The notes under the pieces are model-generated. The model ran no database searches, had not been told where the DNA came from, and saw only the letters and a program-made list of their open reading frames with translations. A stretch of 64,000 bases of DNA from Immundisolibacterales bacterium (lineage in GTDB: Bacteria; Pseudomonadota; Gammaproteobacteria; HK1): contig JAPOPW010000023.1 of the NCBI GenBank assembly GCA_026712715.1, positions 62,001 to 126,000 of the forward strand, written 5' to 3'. The position numbers and the translations under genes are program-made. Shown one piece after another: positions 5,606 through 44,281 of the stretch. How positions within the stretch are numbered: position 1 is the first letter of the stretch; each line of letters opens with the position of its first letter.

Positions 5606-5822
5606 TCGAGCGCTCCGCAGGTCGGGACCACGACGAGCCTTTCCCGGCGGAACCGGCCGGACGCCATGGCCGACGCACGGGACAGGAACGAGATCGCCGA
5701 CGGCTTCGCCCGTGAGTGGCCCTCCGGGTTCGAATGGAACGCGATCGGCGCGGACAGCGTGTTCTTCGCGAGCAGGGCGTTCCCCCTCATCAGCGGAAAA
5801 TACGGGGGCAAGGCCCGGAAGA

Positions 5823-5840
5823 CCCTTTGCCGGCAAAGGG
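5823..5840. promoter_or_regulatory. perfect 18-bp palindrome, candidate operator of smoS-mtlK
   Basis: CCCTTTGCCGGCAAAGGG is identical to its reverse complement. It lies between smoS and a minus-strand TTGACA at 5874-5879, where an operator near a transcription start would be expected. No good -10 hexamer was found at the right spacing, so it could instead be a leader hairpin. Confidence 0.4.
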
Positions 5841-6197
5841 GCTCGAAGAAAAGGTCGCAGATGCGGATCTCCCTGTCAAGGCTCGGTCATCGACTCGGTC
5901 ATCGGGACGCGGGTAGACATGGCGCCGCATTGCGGGGTGAAGCCGTGACTTCGGGCAATGGCGAGAAGCGCAGCGCGGTGCGCTCTCTCGCCCGAATTTC
6001 GGCGCCGGCAACCCCTGCGATGCCTGAAGGATAACGAAACGGGAACCGACCCCCCCGAATCGCGCCACGCATCCCGAGAACCCGATCCCCAAGCCCGCAG
6101 GGCCCGTTTGCGTGCAGCGAGCGAAAATGACGCCAGGAACGCACTCCACGCGTCCACCGGGAGATTCCATCGCGGACCCGAACGCACCGGTTTTTGC

Positions 6198-6227
6198 TTG
6201 ACACCCGTAGAAATCGGCCTCTACCAT
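6198..6227 (+). promoter_or_regulatory. promoter of the smo transporter operon
   Basis: A perfect -35 hexamer TTGACA (6198-6203), 18-bp spacer, then TACCAT (6222-6227, 4 of 6). It predicts a leader of about 30 nt before the smoE start at 6266, which has a GGAGA ribosome-binding site 6-10 nt upstream. Confidence 0.6.
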
Positions 6228-6265
6228 CGCGCCTCCCACCCAACACCAGACTTGGAGAATCCATA

Positions 6266-7600
6266 ATGGGAGACTACGCCACGCCCTCCCGGGGCTTGTT
6301 CCGGTCGGCGGCTATCGGCCTTGTCGCCGCGAGTGCATTCGGTTCGCTCGCGGCAGCCGAAGAGCTGACCATCGCAACGGTCAACAACTCCGACATGATT
6401 GTCATGCAGAAGCTGTCGCCTCAATGGGAGGCTGCGACCGGACACACGTTGAACTGGGTCGTGCTCGAGGAGAACGTGCTCCGCCAGCGCGTCACGACGG
6501 ATATCGCGACAAACGGCGGCCAGTTCGACATCATTACCATCGGGGCATATGAGGCGCCGATTTGGGGAGCTGCGGGATGGTTGAAGCAACTTGACGATCT
6601 CGGCGAAGGCTACGACTACGACGATATCTACGAGAGCGTTCGAAATGGCCTCTCCGCAAACGGCAATCTTTACGCGGTGCCGTTTTACGCTGAAAGCTCA
6701 TTCACCTTCTACCGCAAGGATCTCTTCGAAGCCGCCGGCATCGAGATGCCCGATCAGATTACCTATGCACAGCTCGCCGAGTATGCGAAAAAGCTGCATG
6801 ATCCGGACAACGGAGTCTACGGAACCTGCCAGCGCGGCAAGGCCGGATGGGGTGAGAATATGGCCTTCGTCGGACCGATGGTGAACACCTTCGGCGGCCG
6901 GTGGTTCGACATGGACTGGAATCCGCAGCTTGACACTCAGCCATGGAAGGATGCGGTCAACTACTACGTGGACCTGATGAACAGCTATGGTCCCCCGGGC
7001 GCTTCGAGCAATGGCCACAACGAGAACCGGGCTCTGTTCGCCGACGGCAAGTGCGCCACATGGGTCGACGCGACCTCGGCAGCGGGCTTCATCTACAACC
7101 CGAACGAATCCACGGTTGCGGACAAGACCGACTTCACGGCGGCGCCGATCAACGTCACCGACAAGGGAGCCGGCTGGTTCTGGGCCTGGGCGCTCGCCAT
7201 CCCGAACAGTTCCGGCAAGGAAGCCGCCGCGAAGAGCTTCCTGGAATGGTCGACGTCGAAGGACTACGTGAAGCTCGTCGGCGAGACGGAGGGCTGGGTC
7301 GCGGCACCTCCGGGTACGCGGATGTCGACGTATGCCAATGAGATGTACGTCTCCGCGGCACCGTTCGCGCAAACGGTCGAGGCATCGATTCTGGCGGCGA
7401 ACCCTGCGGACGCCACCCTCGAGCCCGTGCCCTATACCGGTGTCCAGTTCGTGGCAATTCCCGAGTTTCAGGGAATCGGCACCTATGTCGGCAACCAGAT
7501 CTCGGCCGCCTTGGCGGGCACGATTTCGGTCGACGAGGCGTTGGCGAACTCCCAGTCGTTTGCGGTTCGTGAAATGACCAAGGCTGGATACATCAAGTAG
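6266..7600 (+). CDS. smoE: sorbitol/mannitol ABC transporter, periplasmic binding protein
   Basis: Family 1 extracellular solute-binding protein, 444 aa from ATG 6266 (GGAGA a few bases upstream). A Sec signal peptide covers about the first 30 residues, with likely cleavage after GSLAAA. The mature protein starts EELTIATVNNSDM, and the body carries typical sugar-binding-protein segments (YAVPFYAESSFTFYRKDLFEAAG, interrupted here for length). It delivers polyols to the SmoF/SmoG permeases. Function rests on the operon (two permeases and a SmoK-like ATPase) and on the divergent sorbitol and mannitol dehydrogenases. Codon use is visibly less GC-biased than in flanking genes, suggesting a different origin for the transporter block. 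Confidence 0.85.
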   Translation: MGDYATPSRGLFRSAAIGLVAASAFGSLAAAEELTIATVNNSDMIVMQKLSPQWEAATGHTLNWVVLEENVLRQRVTTDIATNGGQFDIITIGAYEAPIWGAAGWLKQLDDLGEGYDYDDIYESVRNGLSANGNLYAVPFYAESSFTFYRKDLFEAAGIEMPDQITYAQLAEYAKKLHDPDNGVYGTCQRGKAGWGENMAFVGPMVNTFGGRWFDMDWNPQLDTQPWKDAVNYYVDLMNSYGPPGASSNGHNENRALFADGKCATWVDATSAAGFIYNPNESTVADKTDFTAAPINVTDKGAGWFWAWALAIPNSSGKEAAAKSFLEWSTSKDYVKLVGETEGWVAAPPGTRMSTYANEMYVSAAPFAQTVEASILAANPADATLEPVPYTGVQFVAIPEFQGIGTYVGNQISAALAGTISVDEALANSQSFAVREMTKAGYIK

Positions 7601-12386: not shown

Positions 12387-13403
12387 TCAGGTGGCGGCGG
12401 CCTGCCTGGCCCACCGGCGTTCGCGAAGTCTGCGCGTCATCCGTTCGTGGGCTTCCGGCGATCCGTCATGGAAGGTGCCCATCAGCTTGTCGATGATCGG
12501 GAGGCCGTCTCCGCCGTAGTTGCACTCGAAGTACCGATGGTGGAGAAAGTGCATGTAGGCGCCGATCTTGAGCCCCTTTTTTCCTTCCTTCCCGATCTCC
12601 TCGAATCCGGCATGCCCGGCCGCCGGCGAAAAGCCGAGGTGGCAGAGGTGGAACATGGCATGGAAGGGGTGCGATGCGATCACCCAGTGCACGATGACGC
12701 CGGAGAAGTAGAGCAGGTGCTCGATCGGGTGCATCGAGAGCCCCGACCACGGCCCGATGTTGACGTTGCGATGGTGAAGGTAGTGGGCGGCCCGATACAG
12801 CGGTTGCCAGTGCAGCAGGCGGTGCACGAGGTAGAAGTGAACCTCGCGGATCAGCGGGATCAGCACGATGAGGGCGATGAACCAGACCGGATTCGACGCC
12901 CACGAGATGAACGGAAGCATCTCGTTCGCGTATAGCCACCAGGTCACCGCTTCATAGGCGGTCCAGATCGTCACTCCGCTCGCGAGGGACCAGAACACGT
13001 TCTCGCGGACTTGTTTTCCGAAGTGGCGCGACTTGGCCTTGTCCGGGGGGAGCTGGGTCGAGTAGCGGTAGTCCGTTCCCTGGCCCTTCAACATGTAGAA
13101 CCAGAGGTGAAGGCCGCCGAAGTACAGGATCGTCAAGCCGAGGTTGCGGACGAAGATGAGGGCGATCCACCCCGGCTCGAAGGTCTTCATCGCCTCCATG
13201 GGCGGCAAGAAGAAGAACCACGCGATGAGTGCGAAGCCAAGGAACACGGTGTTCCACGGCCAGAGGTACCCGGGCCAGCCGAAGAGCCATTTGAGGCATC
13301 CGAGCAGTCGTGGCGGCCAGACCATCGGGGCCGGAAGCTGTTCGAGGTAGTTCGGGCTCCAGTTGCCTCGCTCGTCACGCGTCACCGCCGTGGGTTCGTC
13401 CAT
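12387..13403 (-). CDS. sterol desaturase / fatty acid hydroxylase family membrane protein
   Basis: Integral-membrane di-iron oxygenase of 338 aa. The start at ATG 13403 has a good ribosome-binding site (GGAGGCGAG). Several long hydrophobic helices are visible (from about residue 45), and the three histidine clusters of the family are present: HFYLVHRLLHW, HYLHHR and HFLHHR. Members hydroxylate or desaturate lipids, sterols or carotenoids using iron and O2; the substrate here is unknown. It is unusually tryptophan-rich near the N-terminus. A hairpin follows the gene and a plausible promoter lies at 13440-13468. Confidence 0.85.
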   Translation of the reverse strand: MDEPTAVTRDERGNWSPNYLEQLPAPMVWPPRLLGCLKWLFGWPGYLWPWNTVFLGFALIAWFFFLPPMEAMKTFEPGWIALIFVRNLGLTILYFGGLHLWFYMLKGQGTDYRYSTQLPPDKAKSRHFGKQVRENVFWSLASGVTIWTAYEAVTWWLYANEMLPFISWASNPVWFIALIVLIPLIREVHFYLVHRLLHWQPLYRAAHYLHHRNVNIGPWSGLSMHPIEHLLYFSGVIVHWVIASHPFHAMFHLCHLGFSPAAGHAGFEEIGKEGKKGLKIGAYMHFLHHRYFECNYGGDGLPIIDKLMGTFHDGSPEAHERMTRRLRERRWARQAAAT

Positions 13404-37598: not shown

Positions 37599-38315
37599 TC
37601 AGAAGCGGCGGGGCGCGAGGCCCGACTGGAACCAGGTCACGAAGCTCACGAAGTCGTAGACCGGGAGCCCGACCGCCTCCGCCACGTCCGCGGAGTACGG
37701 ACACATGTTGGTGCACTCGAGCACGATGGCGCCGACTTCCGGGTGTTCCTCGACGAGGCCCCGCGCGCTGTCCACCACGTCCCGGCGCGCGAGGTCTACG
37801 TCGAGCTCCGCTTCGTCGTCCAGGATGACGCGCGTGAACTCCCGGCCATGGTCGGTGCCCGCGACCGGCGCGTCGAGGGGCGCACCGGAGAGGGCGAGGT
37901 GTCGCTCCGTGAGGGAGGCCTGCGAGATGGTGAGGATGCCGGCCCGCTTGTCGGGCGGCAGCAACGCATCGACGGCGGCCACCTGCATGAGCGATGACGT
38001 CGCGACCGGCACCCCGCAGGCGCGCGTGAGCTCCGCCTGTTGGAGGGCGAGGAAGCCGCAGCTCGTGGTAAGCCCGTCGGCGCCGATGCGAACGAGCTCC
38101 CGTCCCGCTTCGACGAAGGCGTCGAGCAGGCCGGTGCCGCCCTGGCGCACGACCCGGTCCGGAGAGGCATCGGCCACGATCCGGTAGAGCACGGGAAAGG
38201 GCCACGTCGCGGCGTTGCCGACATCGCCCGGAATGCGCGGGAAGCGGGTCTCCAGCATCAGGATCCCGACGCTCGCGCCGTATACCGACTTTCCGCCCCG
38301 TTTCACCGTCTTCAC
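37599..38315 (-). CDS. Asp/Glu racemase superfamily protein
   Basis: 238-residue protein of the aspartate/glutamate/hydantoin racemase fold. The two catalytic cysteines of the fold are visible in TTSCGFLAL (near residue 85) and LECTNM (near residue 200). Members racemise acidic amino acids or hydantoins, or isomerise maleate. The start overlaps the end of the upstream CMD gene by 4 bp, so the two are coupled. Confidence 0.85.
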   Translation of the reverse strand: MKTVKRGGKSVYGASVGILMLETRFPRIPGDVGNAATWPFPVLYRIVADASPDRVVRQGGTGLLDAFVEAGRELVRIGADGLTTSCGFLALQQAELTRACGVPVATSSLMQVAAVDALLPPDKRAGILTISQASLTERHLALSGAPLDAPVAGTDHGREFTRVILDDEAELDVDLARRDVVDSARGLVEEHPEVGAIVLECTNMCPYSADVAEAVGLPVYDFVSFVTWFQSGLAPRRF

Positions 38316-38977: not shown

Positions 38978-40177
38978 ATGGACCTCGATTACCAGCCCGA
39001 CGCCCCGCGCGCGCTCGACGGCGTGCGGGTGCTCGACATCTCCCGCCTCGTGGCGGGGAACGCGAGTACCCACGTGCTCGCAGACCACGGCGCCGAGGTC
39101 GTCAAGATCGAGGACCCGGCTCGCGGCGACGCGCTCCGGGAATGGACCTCGGCCGGAGTTGCGTGCTCGTGGAAGGTCTATGCGCGCAACAAGAAGAGCG
39201 TCGCGCTCGATCTCCGAAGCGAAGCCGGGCGCAAGGCGCTGCTCGACCTCGTGCCGAGCGCCCGGGTGCTGGTCGAGAACTTCCGGGCCGGCGCGCTCGA
39301 GCGCATGGGGCTCGGCCCGGACACCCTGCTTGCCCGCAACCCCGATCTGATCGTCGTTCGCGTGAGCGGCTACGGTCAGACCGGACCCTACGCCGGCAAG
39401 CCCGGATTCGGTACGCTCGTCGAAGCGATGTCCGGCTTTGCGTACAAGAACGGCTTTCCCGACAAGCCACCGGCCCTCCCGCCGCTCGCGCTCGCCGACA
39501 TGGTGGCGGGGCTCTACGGCGCGTTCGGGGTCATGGTGGCGCTCCGGGAAATCGAGCTCAAGGGCGGCGGAGGCCAGGTGATCGACCTCTCGCTGCTGGA
39601 GCCGCTCGTCTCGATCCTCGGCCCCGACGCCGCAATCCACAGCGCGACCGGCGAGGCGCCCGTGCGGGTCGGAAACGCGTCCAACACCACCTCGCCGCGC
39701 AACGCCTACCGGACGAGGGACGGCGAGTGGATCGCCATGAGCGGCTCCATGCAGTCGATGGCGATGCGCATCTTCCGGGCCATCGGCCGGGCCGACATGT
39801 GCGACGATCCGCGTTACGCCACCCCTCCGGCGCGTTCCGCGCACCGCGAGGAGGTCGACGCGATCGTCGGCGGCTTCATCGCCGGGCGCACCCTCGCCGA
39901 GGCGATGGAGGTCTTCGACCGGGAGGAGGTGACGGCGGGGCCGATCTACTCCGCCGCGCAACTGAAGGAAGACCCCCACGCGCGCGAGCGCGGGGTCCTG
40001 GTCAACCTTCCCGACCACGAGCTCGGGCGGCTGCCGATGCACAACGTCATCCCGCGCCTCTCGCGAACCCCGGGCGCGATCCGGACTCCCGCGCCCGCGC
40101 TCGGCGCGCACAACGAAGAGGTCCTCGGCAGTCTCGGCCCGGACCGCGCGCAGCTCGAGGAGGAGGGTGCGAAATGA
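38978..40177 (+). CDS. class III CoA-transferase (CaiB/BaiF/Frc family)
   Basis: 399-residue type III CoA-transferase, full length. Start at ATG 38978. Family signatures: LDISRLVAGNASTHVLADHGAEVVKIE at the N-terminus (several residues apart from the usual P-G motif), NKKSVALDLRSEAG, VENFRAGALERMG, VSGYGQTGPYAGKPGF and the catalytic Asp in LALADMVAGLYGAF. Its downstream neighbour overlaps by 4 bp and is a CitE-like lyase, so the pair would activate an acid to its CoA ester and then cleave or form a C-C bond, as in citramalyl-, malyl- or methylmalyl-CoA pathways. Confidence 0.88.
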   Translation: MDLDYQPDAPRALDGVRVLDISRLVAGNASTHVLADHGAEVVKIEDPARGDALREWTSAGVACSWKVYARNKKSVALDLRSEAGRKALLDLVPSARVLVENFRAGALERMGLGPDTLLARNPDLIVVRVSGYGQTGPYAGKPGFGTLVEAMSGFAYKNGFPDKPPALPPLALADMVAGLYGAFGVMVALREIELKGGGGQVIDLSLLEPLVSILGPDAAIHSATGEAPVRVGNASNTTSPRNAYRTRDGEWIAMSGSMQSMAMRIFRAIGRADMCDDPRYATPPARSAHREEVDAIVGGFIAGRTLAEAMEVFDREEVTAGPIYSAAQLKEDPHARERGVLVNLPDHELGRLPMHNVIPRLSRTPGAIRTPAPALGAHNEEVLGSLGPDRAQLEEEGAK

Positions 40178-41058
40178 GTCTTCCCGTCTGGCGGTCGCAG
40201 CTCTTCATTCCGGCGACGGCGGAGCGGTTCATCGCCAAGGGGCCGGAGGTCGGGGCGGACGCGCTGATCCTCGACCTCGAGGACTCGGTGGCGGCGAACG
40301 CCAAGGCGTCCGCCCGGGCGGCGGCCCCCGACATCGTGCGCGGATTCGCGGCCCGCGGCATCGACACCCTGGTGCGCATCAACCGGCCCTGGCGGCTCGC
40401 GGTGCGCGACCTCGAGGCGGTCGTCGGACCCCAGCTCACCGCGCTCCTTTGCCCGATGGTGGACAGCGCGGAGCATGTCGTCGCGCTCGCCGAGACGGTT
40501 GCGGAGCTCGAGGCCGAACGCGGCATTCCGGCCGGCCGGATCCGGCTGGTCCTCGCGGTCGAGACCGCGAAGGGCTATCTCAACCTGCGCGCAATCGCCC
40601 ATGCCGACCCGCGCACCGTTGCGCTCTCGCTCGGGTCGGAGGACTTCGGTCTCTCCATGGGCATGACCCCCGACGAGGAGACCCTCTTCGGCCCGAAGCA
40701 GCAGTTGGTGGCCTGCGCGAACGAGGCGGGGCTCCTGCCGATGGGTTTCGTCGGGTCGATCGCCGAGTTCCGCGACGTCGAGCGTTTTCGACGCATCGTC
40801 CGGCGCTCGAAGAAGATGGGCCTTCGCGGAGCCACCTGCATCCACCCGAACCAGGTTCGGGTCTGCAACGAGGAGTTCGGACCGAGCGAGGCGGAGCTCG
40901 AGGAGGCGCGCCGCATCGTCGCCGCCTATGACGAGGCGCTGGCTCGAGGCGACGGCGCGATTTCCGTGGACGGCAGGATGGTGGACGTGCCGGTCGCCGA
41001 GCGCGCGCGAGTGGTGCTGCGCGTCGCCGAAGCCCTGGCCGCCCGCCAGGCCCGCTGA
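40174..41058 (+). CDS. HpcH/HpaI aldolase / citrate lyase beta-like (CitE) protein
   Basis: 294-residue TIM-barrel C-C lyase. Start ATG 40174 overlaps the CoA-transferase stop (ATGA). Motifs: RSQLFIPATAERFIAKG at the N-terminus, ADALILDLEDSVA with the metal-facing acidic residues, LVRINRP, VETAKGYLN (Mg2+-binding Glu), LGSEDFGLSMG and CIHPNQV. CitE-like proteins act on malyl-CoA, methylmalyl-CoA or citramalyl-CoA. Paired with the transferase it probably catalyses degradation of a branched dicarboxylic acid. Confidence 0.88.
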   Translation: MSLPVWRSQLFIPATAERFIAKGPEVGADALILDLEDSVAANAKASARAAAPDIVRGFAARGIDTLVRINRPWRLAVRDLEAVVGPQLTALLCPMVDSAEHVVALAETVAELEAERGIPAGRIRLVLAVETAKGYLNLRAIAHADPRTVALSLGSEDFGLSMGMTPDEETLFGPKQQLVACANEAGLLPMGFVGSIAEFRDVERFRRIVRRSKKMGLRGATCIHPNQVRVCNEEFGPSEAELEEARRIVAAYDEALARGDGAISVDGRMVDVPVAERARVVLRVAEALAARQAR

Positions 41059-41164: not shown

Positions 41165-42592
41165 ATGAGCACGAGCTTCATCGTCGTCGCCAAGCGCGAC
41201 TGTCCGACCTGCGAGCTCGTGCAGCCGGTGCTCCGCGAGATCGCCGCGAGCGGCGCGGGGCTCACCGTCTACACCCAGGACGACCCGACGTTTCCGGACG
41301 GCCTCGATGCCGTGGACGACCGCGCCCTCGAGCATTCGTGGCGCCTCGACATCGAGACGGTGCCGACCCTGATACGCCTCGATGGCGGCACGGAGGCCGA
41401 GCGCACCGTCGGCTGGGACCGGACCGAGTGGGAGCGGGTGACGGACCTCGGCTCGCTCGGCCCGGATCTCCCCGCCTTCCGGCCGGGCTGCGGCTCGAAG
41501 AGCGTCGACCCCGGCATGGAGGAGATTCTCGAGGTCGCGTTCGGCTCGCCGCCTCTCGCGGCCCGCGCCATCGAGGTGGCTTCCCCGGAGGACGAGCACG
41601 AGCTCTGCTTCGCGCGGGGCTGGAGCGACGGACTGCCGGTGGTGCCACCGACCCCGGTCCGGGTGCTTCGCATGCTGAAGGGCACGACCCGCGACCCGCA
41701 GGAGGTCATCGGCGCGATTCCCCCCGACAACGCCCCGTGCACGGTCGAGAAGGTCGCGATCAACGCGGTCCTCTCCGGCTGCAAGCCGGAGTACCTGCCG
41801 GTCGTCCTCGCGGCCGTGGAAGCGGCCCTCGATCCCGCGTTCGCGATGCACGGCCTTCTCTGCACCACGTATTTCTCGAGCCCGATGGTGATCGTGAACG
41901 GCCCTGTCGCGCGCCGCATCGGCATGAACTCGGGGGTGAACGCCCTCGGCCAGGGCAACCGGGCGAACGCGAGCATCGGCCGTGCCCTTCAGCTTCTCAT
42001 CCGCAACGTCGGGGGCGGGGTGCCGGGGGGGATCGACCGCGCGACCCTCGGCTGGCCGGGCAAGTACACCCTTTGCTTCGCGGAGGACGAATCGGATCCG
42101 GACTGGCCGCCCCTGAGCGTCGAGCGCGGCCTCGCGCCGGGCACCTCCGCGGTCACCCTCTTTGGCGGCGGGGGCCTGAGCCCGAACATGGACGAGGGAT
42201 CGCGCACCCCCGAGTCGCTCGCCCGCTCCCTCGCGTTGACCCTCAACTCGGTCGGGCACCCGAAGCTCGTGAAGAGCTTCGACGCCTTCCTCGTCCTCTC
42301 CCCCGAGCACTGGCGGATCTTCAAGGAAGGGGGCTGGGACAAGGCCCGGATCAAGGCCGGGCTCGAGGCCGCGACGGCGCGCCCCGGAACGGAGCTCGTG
42401 CGCGGCGCCGGTGGGGTCGACGCGGGCGTGCGGTCCGAGCTCGTCGAGGAATCGATGACCAAGTTCCGCGACGGAGGACTGAACATCGTCCGCGCCGGTG
42501 GCGAGGCGGGCCTCATGAGCGCCGTCATCGGGGGATGGGCGGCGAGCGGCGCCCGCGGAACCGTCCCCGTCACCCGGGAGATCGGGCGCTGA
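41165..42592 (+). CDS. thioredoxin-domain protein paired with the UGSC selenoprotein
   Basis: 475-residue two-part protein. ATG 41165 has GGAGGGTTC upstream and is preferred to the ATG at 41144. Residues 1-95 form a thioredoxin-like domain with redox motif CPTC (13-16) and cis-Pro67 (TVPTLI). The rest (about 105-475) is a large domain I cannot name. It contains GCGS (108-111), Cys148, Cys192 and Cys206 (LSGCKPEYLPVVLAAVEA), and the Gly/Asn-rich GMNSGVNALGQGNRANASIG. There is no signal peptide. The gene precedes the UGSC selenoprotein by 122 bp on the same strand; the obvious inference is that its dithiol reduces or otherwise serves the selenoprotein. Confidence 0.82.
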   Translation: MSTSFIVVAKRDCPTCELVQPVLREIAASGAGLTVYTQDDPTFPDGLDAVDDRALEHSWRLDIETVPTLIRLDGGTEAERTVGWDRTEWERVTDLGSLGPDLPAFRPGCGSKSVDPGMEEILEVAFGSPPLAARAIEVASPEDEHELCFARGWSDGLPVVPPTPVRVLRMLKGTTRDPQEVIGAIPPDNAPCTVEKVAINAVLSGCKPEYLPVVLAAVEAALDPAFAMHGLLCTTYFSSPMVIVNGPVARRIGMNSGVNALGQGNRANASIGRALQLLIRNVGGGVPGGIDRATLGWPGKYTLCFAEDESDPDWPPLSVERGLAPGTSAVTLFGGGGLSPNMDEGSRTPESLARSLALTLNSVGHPKLVKSFDAFLVLSPEHWRIFKEGGWDKARIKAGLEAATARPGTELVRGAGGVDAGVRSELVEESMTKFRDGGLNIVRAGGEAGLMSAVIGGWAASGARGTVPVTREIGR

Positions 42593-42614
42593 TCGGCCCG
42601 GCAACCCTTTTTCC

Positions 42615-42650
42615 CGCGCCGCGCCGCGCCGCGCCGCGCACGCACGCACG
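42615..42650 (+). repeat. short simple repeats before the selenoprotein gene
   Basis: Five CGCGC pentamers (about 42615-42639) run into ACGC tetramer repeats. The tract lies 60-100 bp upstream of the selenoprotein start and could be slippage-prone. Confidence 0.7.
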
Positions 42651-42714
42651 AACGTGCTTCCGAGGCGCCCGCGAATCCAGGACCCGGCAGAACCCCCACG
42701 GAGGAAACGACACG

Positions 42715-43245
42715 ATGAACGAAGGCATCCGGCTGCTCGACCCGACCGCGGAGACTTCTGCGGTCCGGCGCGAGCGACGTCCACCCCCACCGTCCCTCGA
42801 CGGCCTCACCCTGGGGCTGCTCGACATCGGCAAGGCCCGCGGCAGCACCTTCCTCGATCGGATCGAGTCGCACTTCGCCGATCGCGGCCTCACCGTGAAG
42901 CGCTACGCCAAGCCCACCAACGCCCGCACTGCGCCGGTCGACCTCGCGCAGACCATCGCCGAGGAGGTCGATGTCGTCGTCGACGCGTTGTCCGATTGAG
43001 GGTCGTGCACATCGTGCAGTTTGCATGACATGCTCGACCTCGATGAGCGCGGCATCCCCGGCGTCATGATCGCGACCACCGCGTTTCAGGAGGCCGCGGC
43101 CGCGCAGTCCGCTTCCCTCGGCTACGAGCCCGCGATCGTGTGGGTCCCCCACCCGATCCAGAACCGCACGGACGAGGAGCTCCTGGCCATCGCGGACGAA
43201 GCGATGGGAGAAATCGTGGAGAAGCTCACTCCGGCCCCCGCCTGA
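42715..43245 (+). CDS. UGSC-family selenoprotein (in-frame TGA read as selenocysteine)
   Basis: One gene of 176 residues with a single internal TGA at 42997-42999. Start ATG 42715 follows GGAGGAAAC. The frame runs up to VVVDALSD, then TGA, then GSCTSCSLHDMLDLDERGIP with no further stop until 43245. The motif is therefore Sec95-Gly-Ser-Cys98, with Cys101 beyond, exactly the pattern that names the UGSC (seleno)protein family. The fold looks Rossmann-like: the selenocysteine follows a hydrophobic strand (DVVVDALSD) and the next strand is GVMIATTAF. A hairpin suited to a bacterial SECIS begins 2 nt after the TGA. Selenocysteine plus a nearby Cys suggests a thiol/selenol oxidoreductase. The chemistry is unknown. 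SelA, SelB, SelD and tRNA-Sec must be encoded elsewhere. Confidence 0.85.
43002..43029 (+). promoter_or_regulatory. candidate bacterial SECIS hairpin
   Basis: GUCGUGCA (43002-43009) pairs over 8 bp (one G-U) with UGCAUGAC (43022-43029); the 12-nt loop is CAUCGUGCAGUU. It starts just after the selenocysteine codon at 42997-42999, within the coding region, as bacterial SECIS elements do. The loop begins only 10 nt after the UGA, closer than the usual E. coli range, so a second smaller hairpin at 43031-43049 should be considered too. Confidence 0.5.
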
Positions 43246-43312: not shown

Positions 43313-44281
43313 GTGACCGTACGGGTGCCGATGAGCGTCATCGGCGGATTCCTCGGAGCGGGGAAGACCACGCTCCTCAACCGCGTCCTCGCCGGCCGCC
43401 ACGGGGTCCGCTACGCGGTGCTGGTCAACGACTTCGGCGAAATCAACGTCGATGGCGACCTCGTGGCCGCCCATGGCGGCGACACGGTCACGTTCGCGAA
43501 CGGATGTGTCTGCTGCACCATGGGCGACGACCTCGTGGGCGCGCTCGACCGCCTGCTGGACGGTGGCCGTCCCCCGGACCAGGTCCTCGTCGAAGCGAGC
43601 GGGGTCGCGGACCCGTCCGCGATTGCGGACGTCGCGACCCTGCACCCCGGTCTCGCGCGCGATCTCGTCGTCGTCCTCACCGACGCGGAGACGGTCCGTT
43701 CCCGCCACGAGGACGAACGGCTCCGGGACACCGTCGACCGCCAGCTCGCCGCCGCCGACCTCCTTGTCCTCAACAAGTGCGACCGGGTCACGGACGGGGA
43801 GCGCGAGACGGCCGAGGCGTGGCTGCGCGATCGCTCCGGCGCCCCGGTCATCCGCACGACGAGCGCGGACATCCCGATGGAGCTCCTGGCCGCGGCCCCG
43901 GTCGACCCTCCCGCCCGGTCCGCGCCCGAGGGTGCTCCCGACCACTACCACCAGTTCCGTTCCCGCTTCGTGCCTTGCCCGGACCCGATCGACCCGGACC
44001 GCCTGCGCACCGCCTGCGAGGCGCTGGCGCCCCGGCTGCTCCGCGCCAAGGGGTTCGTCATTGTGCACAAACCGGGGCCGGGCCCGGATCCCGAGCCGGA
44101 GTGGATGGTCGTTCAGGTGAGCGGGAGGGCCGTCGAGGTAGCGCCCTGGACTCCTCCTGCCGATCGGGCGTCCCCGTCCCCCGGCGTGGTCTTCATCGGA
44201 CTCGACGAGCTTCCTCCCACGGAGGAGCTCCGCGCCGCAGTGGACCGGGCGTCGGCTCCGAACCCGCCCGGACATACCTGA
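43313..44281 (+). CDS. CobW/COG0523-family GTPase (metallochaperone)
   Basis: 322-residue G3E GTPase from GTG 43313. Walker A is GGFLGAGKTT (11-20), the metal-binding CxCC motif is GCVCCT (64-69), the acidic EASGVADP switch follows, and the guanine-specificity NKCD is present. The C-terminal CobW domain has YHQFRSRF and no His-rich tail. COG0523 proteins insert or deliver Zn, Co, Ni or similar metals. It lies 67 bp after the selenoprotein gene on the same strand, which hints that the redox pair or a partner enzyme needs a metal. Confidence 0.88.
   Translation: MTVRVPMSVIGGFLGAGKTTLLNRVLAGRHGVRYAVLVNDFGEINVDGDLVAAHGGDTVTFANGCVCCTMGDDLVGALDRLLDGGRPPDQVLVEASGVADPSAIADVATLHPGLARDLVVVLTDAETVRSRHEDERLRDTVDRQLAAADLLVLNKCDRVTDGERETAEAWLRDRSGAPVIRTTSADIPMELLAAAPVDPPARSAPEGAPDHYHQFRSRFVPCPDPIDPDRLRTACEALAPRLLRAKGFVIVHKPGPGPDPEPEWMVVQVSGRAVEVAPWTPPADRASPSPGVVFIGLDELPPTEELRAAVDRASAPNPPGHT

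Follow-up and report, generated by a model that had tools for sequence, protein, structure and literature searches.

The window examined here, the whole stretch of 64,000 nucleotides, contains a gene that raises two questions: whether it ends at an in-frame TGA or is read through as selenocysteine (Sec), and what the resulting protein would do. The frame opens with an ATG at 42715, meets a TGA at 42997-42999 (codon 95), and then stays open until the TGA at 43243-43245. The original prediction had taken this GGAGG-led frame, with the residues G-S-C-T-S-C following the TGA, as a hidden gene of the UGSC selenoprotein family, and all of these elements were read in the sequence as claimed. UGSC is listed among the commonest selenoprotein families of aquatic metagenomes in PMC2398784, and it has been without a known function since it was first described. 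The features of the gene are as follows.

42700..42704, plus strand: GGAGG ribosome-binding site of the UGSC gene, read directly
42715..43245, plus strand: UGSC family selenoprotein gene, 176 residues, Sec at residue 95 and a candidate resolving Cys at residue 98
42997..42999, plus strand: in-frame TGA, read as selenocysteine (U95) from the HMM alignment across it and from the TGA or Cys codon found here in the homologues read
43000..43040, plus strand: bacterial SECIS-like hairpin, apical stem 43012-43018 paired with 43022-43028, loop GUU at 43019-43021

The joined protein, with a calculated mass of 18.8 kDa when Cys takes the place of Sec, matched the Pfam UGSC model (PF24696) over residues 7-172 (E 1.2e-39, 136.6 bits against a cut-off of 25) and the NCBIfam model NF041046 (135.1 bits against a curated cut-off of 125). 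Both matches exceeded the curated cut-offs across the TGA, which confirmed the family identity, and because one HMM alignment crosses the TGA, a single domain spans it. The window gene is therefore a further member of the known UGSC family, and the protein itself shows no difference from that family. Third codon positions took most of the substitutions on both sides of the TGA; in the comparison with the relative L039, the counts at the three codon positions were 5/1/21 upstream and 3/4/22 downstream.

Homologues with Cys aligned at residue 95, which the original prediction had also looked to, were found in several groups. L038, from another proteobacterium, was 48% identical and had CGSC at the same place, and CGSC was also present in haloarchaeal plasmid copies (L085, L089, L090, and L098), in Arthrobacter (L087), and in Embleya (L088). 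Sec and Cys thus replace each other at residue 95, where relatives have either a TGA or Cys. The same TGA recurred in independent loci, so it is genuine and not the sequencing error that had been considered as a possible flaw. A decayed UGSC gene of the CGSC form was observed at L037 (G277:C6, about 12789-13246); it has a frameshift, and one of its codons is TGA in place of the Trp of its relatives.

Bacterial SECIS elements are hairpins that lie shortly after the UGA and carry a G at the first loop position. Directly after the TGA of the window gene, the RNA was predicted to fold at -22.4 kcal/mol (z -3.56), no shuffled sequence folded as well, and the GUU loop began 19 nt past the UGA, with G at its first position. 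Across 37 distinct Sec sequences, 96.5% of the cells of the apical stem were paired, and shifted registers scored far lower. One stem pair showed a compensatory change from C-G to G-C in 5 of the 37 sequences, and the same five also changed Cys to Trp. The loop codon, the eighth counted from the TGA, had the form NGT: in a larger set, it was AGT in 27/27 Sec genes with Ser there and TGT or GGT in Sec genes with another residue, and AGT made up 3/108 of the Ser codons of the window genes. In the Cys homologues, this position was TCG, TCC, TGC, or another codon, the signature of the Sec genes was absent, and the hairpin was weaker in most, though not all, of these genes. Two divergent subfamilies departed from this pattern: in L064 and its relatives, the stem had moved by one base and the hairpin was still strong, and the variants of L019 and L057 folded poorly.

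The genome of the window (5.05 Mb, 97.9% complete, and 4.96% contamination as listed) was then considered for the selenium machinery, on whose presence the original prediction depended. Contig C80 carried a full selA (546 bits) adjoining selB (414 bits), and contig C66 carried a tRNA-Sec (72.5 bits) about 1.5 kb from selD (292 bits), so that all four components were present, each above its curated cut-off. The family search brought the UGSC genes of this genome to five, and every one of them had a single internal TGA; the four others are given below.

Elsewhere in the same genome (G000), four further UGSC genes: L017 at C77:20323, L018 at C29:3934, L019 at C10:7615, and L021 at C5:88198

Five copies of one selenoprotein family in one genome is an unusual number. 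In the genome's own order, UGSC was found in 8/17 genomes, with one TGA in all 23 copies listed. In another proteobacterial order (that of G139; family f65, genus g145; for example, L109-L138), UGSC was found in 75/76 genomes, usually with 3-5 copies per genome and with the TGA in every match listed. A scan of the genome collection with the single UGSC protein recovered close relatives only, mostly labelled as gammaproteobacterial MAGs.

A true stop at this TGA, in a gene that is decaying or split or whose downstream part is untranslated, would agree with the ordinary table 11 reading, which ends there, and decay did truly occur in the relative L037, with its frameshift and its TGA at the Trp position. 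We find this explanation scarcely credible, since it conflicts with the purifying selection downstream of the TGA, with the recurrence of this TGA across the five paralogues and in proteobacterial orders that are far apart, with the Cys codon in haloarchaea, and with the hairpin signature together with the full Sec machinery. From sequence comparison, we believe that the UGA at 42997 is most likely decoded as selenocysteine by SelB and tRNA-Sec, helped by the hairpin that follows it.

The second question, that of function, leads to the neighbouring genes, of which the following are relevant here.

37602-38315, minus strand: gene of the Asp/Glu/hydantoin racemase family (PF01177; NF005679), with a conserved counterpart beside UGSC in L042
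38999..40174, plus strand: CoA-transferase of family III (CaiB type; PF02515, E 2.7e-114), upstream of UGSC
40171..41055, plus strand: HpcH/HpaI or CitE-like CoA-ester lyase (PF03328, E 2e-37), overlapping the end of the CoA-transferase gene
41165..42592, plus strand: partner gene, with an N-terminal domain of thioredoxin (Trx) fold carrying CPTC (about residues 1-95) and a UGSC-partner domain (41582-42589)
43313..44281, plus strand: CobW-type GTPase, a possible metallochaperone (PF02492, E 1.4e-44), just downstream of UGSC

Short CGCCG and CGCA repeats were observed at 42611-42650, between the partner and UGSC genes. The original prediction had paired UGSC with a thioredoxin-domain protein. 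This pairing was confirmed; what stays constant, however, is the C-terminal domain of that protein, since many partners have no Trx domain. In the window, the Trx fold of the N-terminal domain was supported by a VIA Z of 8.6 over 81 residues. The C-terminal domain, of about 340 residues, had no credible Pfam or NCBIfam match, no Pfam family was common to all of the 21 partner members scanned, and a PDB sequence search with the partner gave nothing convincing. The partner model was of moderate quality (pLDDT 77), and its C-terminal domain, searched only when joined to the Trx domain, gave no usable fold match.

The partner domain was present at 17/17 of the UGSC-surrounding loci examined and lay within about 1.4 kb of UGSC in 36/37 further loci, and this adjacency extends from proteobacteria to haloarchaea in almost every locus examined. 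Fusions of UGSC to the partner were found in two paralogue groups of this genus (L018/L029 and L021/L031), which accounts for 2/4 of the further copies in the same genome, and in L086. Among 398 Pseudomonadota genomes, the partner profile and the UGSC model found exactly the same 5, each with the partner at the UGSC site; since the partner profile was built from UGSC loci, the informative part of this result is that no orphan partner copy appeared. Adjacency, fusion, and co-occurrence in the sequence data thus show a partnership of UGSC with a conserved domain. A fusion of UGSC to a conserved domain called Unknown_1 was reported from the GOS metagenomes (PMC2398784, Figure S1A), in passages that describe the fusion and not a general adjacency. 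Unknown_1 could be the same domain as that of the partner.

Three further observations concern the partner. The L086 fusion (5815-7500) is a Sec-type UGSC on the IncP conjugative plasmid of Acidovorax sp. T1 (NZ_CP021650.1), and the public annotation of this record gives a hypothetical protein at 5815-6105, ending at the TGA. The partner gene beside the decayed UGSC of L037 is still open. Two tandem or flanking partner paralogues accompany one UGSC at L089 (4642-7341), L090 (4818-7480), and L035 (6122-8639), which suggests that the partner may be heteromeric in some lineages.

In the window, the genes stand on one strand in the order CoA transferase, CitE-like lyase, Trx-partner, UGSC, and CobW GTPase. 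The CitE-like lyase recurred at L029 and L090, and the order in Halorientalis was DUF6282, LLM, CoA transferase, CoA ester lyase, partner, UGSC, and partner. CoA transferases were also near L030, L037, L085, and L089; acyl-CoA ligases, enoyl-CoA hydratases, or acyl-CoA dehydrogenases were near L028, L029, and L037; and LLM flavoenzymes were near L034 and L043. Neither CaiB nor CitE was seen beside the close orthologue in L042; the link is thus recurrent but not fixed, and the assignment to a CoA pathway is weak. In Arthrobacter, the run trxB-trxA-partner-UGSC fits both the Trx domain fused to the partner in the window and the thioredoxin supply of glycine reductase.

The GTPase raises the idea that UGSC and its partner bind or insert a metal, with Sec and Cys as ligands and the neighbouring CobW protein as metallochaperone. 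Conserved Cys residues occur in both UGSC and the partner, and CobW lies immediately downstream of UGSC in the window and beside it in the closest relatives (L039, L042, and L045). At the other loci examined, no CobW gene was seen adjoining UGSC, and we consider a metal-handling role improbable.

The fold of UGSC has been called likely thioredoxin-like in the GOS selenoproteome paper (PMC2398784), a statement that was repeated in PMC13188914. The AlphaFold2 model made from 21 sequences had a mean pLDDT of 92.4 and the order E32-37, H43-56, E60-65, H75-84, E87-93, H96-111, E116-121, H122-135, E140-144, and H153-171. In this model, Sec95 follows the third strand and stands at the N-terminal end of the third helix, a position that would favour the selenolate. 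Foldseek and VIA searches with the model returned flavodoxins, corrinoid-binding domains, and similar alpha/beta folds, none of which stood out; the top VIA row, 8s7v_H, had a Z of 12.4 where a de novo protein reached 11.4, a margin too narrow to assign UGSC to a family. A PDB sequence search with UGSC gave nothing convincing. The model points to a flavodoxin/Rossmann-like fold with five strands alternating with helices, and the earlier guess of a Rossmann-type segment fits it better than the published thioredoxin-like one. The model speaks against a thioredoxin fold for UGSC, since it puts Sec after the third strand, whereas the beta-alpha-beta-alpha-beta-beta-alpha fold of thioredoxins has its active-site motif after the first. 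UGSC has the UxxC spacing in common with the Trx-like and Prx-like selenoproteins, whereas its predicted order of strands and helices and the place of its Sec differ from those of the Trx-fold selenoproteins.

These results bear on whether UGSC could be a general thiol or selenol oxidoreductase of thioredoxin-like fold, a peroxidase or disulfide reductase, with the partner as a carrier of protein or small-molecule substrates. The U-x-x-C motif, the Trx domain with TrxA and TrxB nearby, the fold suggested in PMC2398784, and a peroxidase activity reported for GrdB, going by a title cited in PMC3091704, would all agree with it. However, the pLDDT 92.4 model places Sec after the third of five strands that alternate with helices, the Foldseek and VIA rows are flavodoxin/Rossmann-like, and a stress or repair enzyme is not expected so often near CoA transferases, CoA lyases, and acyl-CoA ligases. 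We consider an oxidoreductase of this kind plausible yet unlikely.

A different relationship appeared when UGSC was compared with the selenoproteins of D-proline and glycine reductase. PrdB sequences (Sec or Cys) were taken from the plasmid records L091-L096 and aligned with GRDB-family relatives (alignment A7). In hhalign, the UGSC alignment (A6) matched A7 with P 1.7e-5 and a probability of 78% over 69 columns, with Sec placed on Sec; this is a single-pair comparison, with hhalign probabilities of 73-78% over about 70 residues. When the four motif columns were masked on both sides, the register was unchanged (P 3.9e-4). The real score was 42.1, compared with a best of 20.6 in 100 column shuffles, 19-20 for reversed profiles, and at most 22.4 for 18 unrelated families drawn from the neighbourhoods. 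A 44-sequence UGSC profile gave P 3.1e-5 against PrdB/GrdB. An earlier comparison of UGSC with GRDB, using six Cys-type sequences, had been weak (P 0.0017, probability 15%), and the signal was clear only once real PrdB sequences were used. We believe with moderate confidence, on this sequence evidence, that UGSC and the Sec domain of PrdB/GrdB are distant homologues.

The motif of UGSC reads U-G-[ST]-C and leads into a helix and then a G-I-P-containing strand, a pattern reminiscent of PrdB. UGSC and the PrdB/GRDB family have the U/C-G-x-C motif aligned in register, placed where a beta strand gives way to a helix, and a similar GIP-containing segment follows it in both. The thioredoxin electron supply of glycine reductase (PMC3091704) may be another likeness. 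UGSC is shorter, lacks the C-x-x-C-H histidine, and occurs outside Stickland fermenters. PF07355 was absent from the matches up to E 10 in all 21 UGSC members, and at the position of the His that is invariant in A7, UGSC has Thr, Ser, Met, or Cys; for both reasons, UGSC is not a member of PF07355. The genome of the window also encodes, at L067 (G000:C50:98006-98413), a member of the GRDB family (PF07355) that has no in-frame TGA. The comparison of the partner with PrdA, for which three PrdA sequences only were used, gave P 0.61, no sign of a relationship, and so lends no support to a pyruvoyl mechanism.

Taking the partnership, the predicted fold, and this kinship together, we propose that UGSC and its partner form a thioredoxin-fed, two-component selenoenzyme reductase that serves in small-acid catabolism and works like D-proline reductase, a reading to which we give a probability of about 60%. 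The reaction type and the electron supply are argued by analogy. For PrdB, it has been proposed that the selenolate attacks a substrate carbon and that a Cys then resolves the product to an Se-S bond, and a thioredoxin route has been described for glycine reductase (PMC3091704). By this analogy, UGSC would be the small catalytic subunit and the partner domain, encoded just upstream, the second subunit. The partner would hold a small carboxylic substrate, of which an electrophilic atom would be attacked by the selenolate of Sec95 at the helix N-terminus, and Cys98 would resolve the product to an Se-S bond. Thioredoxin, here probably the Trx domain fused to the partner, would re-reduce this bond, and the product would enter CoA-dependent catabolism, a step suggested by the repeated presence of CoA transferases, CoA-ester lyases, and acyl-CoA enzymes near UGSC.

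More broadly, UGSC and its partner could represent an unrecognised class of two-component reductases, Sec-dependent in many bacteria and Cys-dependent in haloarchaea and some Actinomycetota, which would have the catalytic domain in common with D-proline and glycine reductase, use a different substrate-binding subunit, and reduce small acids outside Stickland fermenters. We put forward this wider claim tentatively, at a little short of even odds.

The hairpin, the five UGSC copies, and the kinship to PrdB/GrdB did not appear in the original prediction. New for the UGSC family are its fivefold presence in a single genome, the constant partner domain, the predicted alpha/beta fold, and the kinship to PrdB/GrdB, by which UGSC is probably linked to the Prd and Grd reductases both in evolution and in mechanism; the functional reading of UGSC with its partner is new within the literature searched. 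Standard annotation loses the UGSC gene, of which the Acidovorax plasmid record ending at the TGA is a clear case. The constant partner, the predicted fold, and the likely kinship to a studied selenoenzyme make the function of UGSC testable. The five copies in this genome, together with the presence of UGSC in 75/76 genomes of one order, suggest a sizeable selenium-dependent metabolism that has gone unrecorded.
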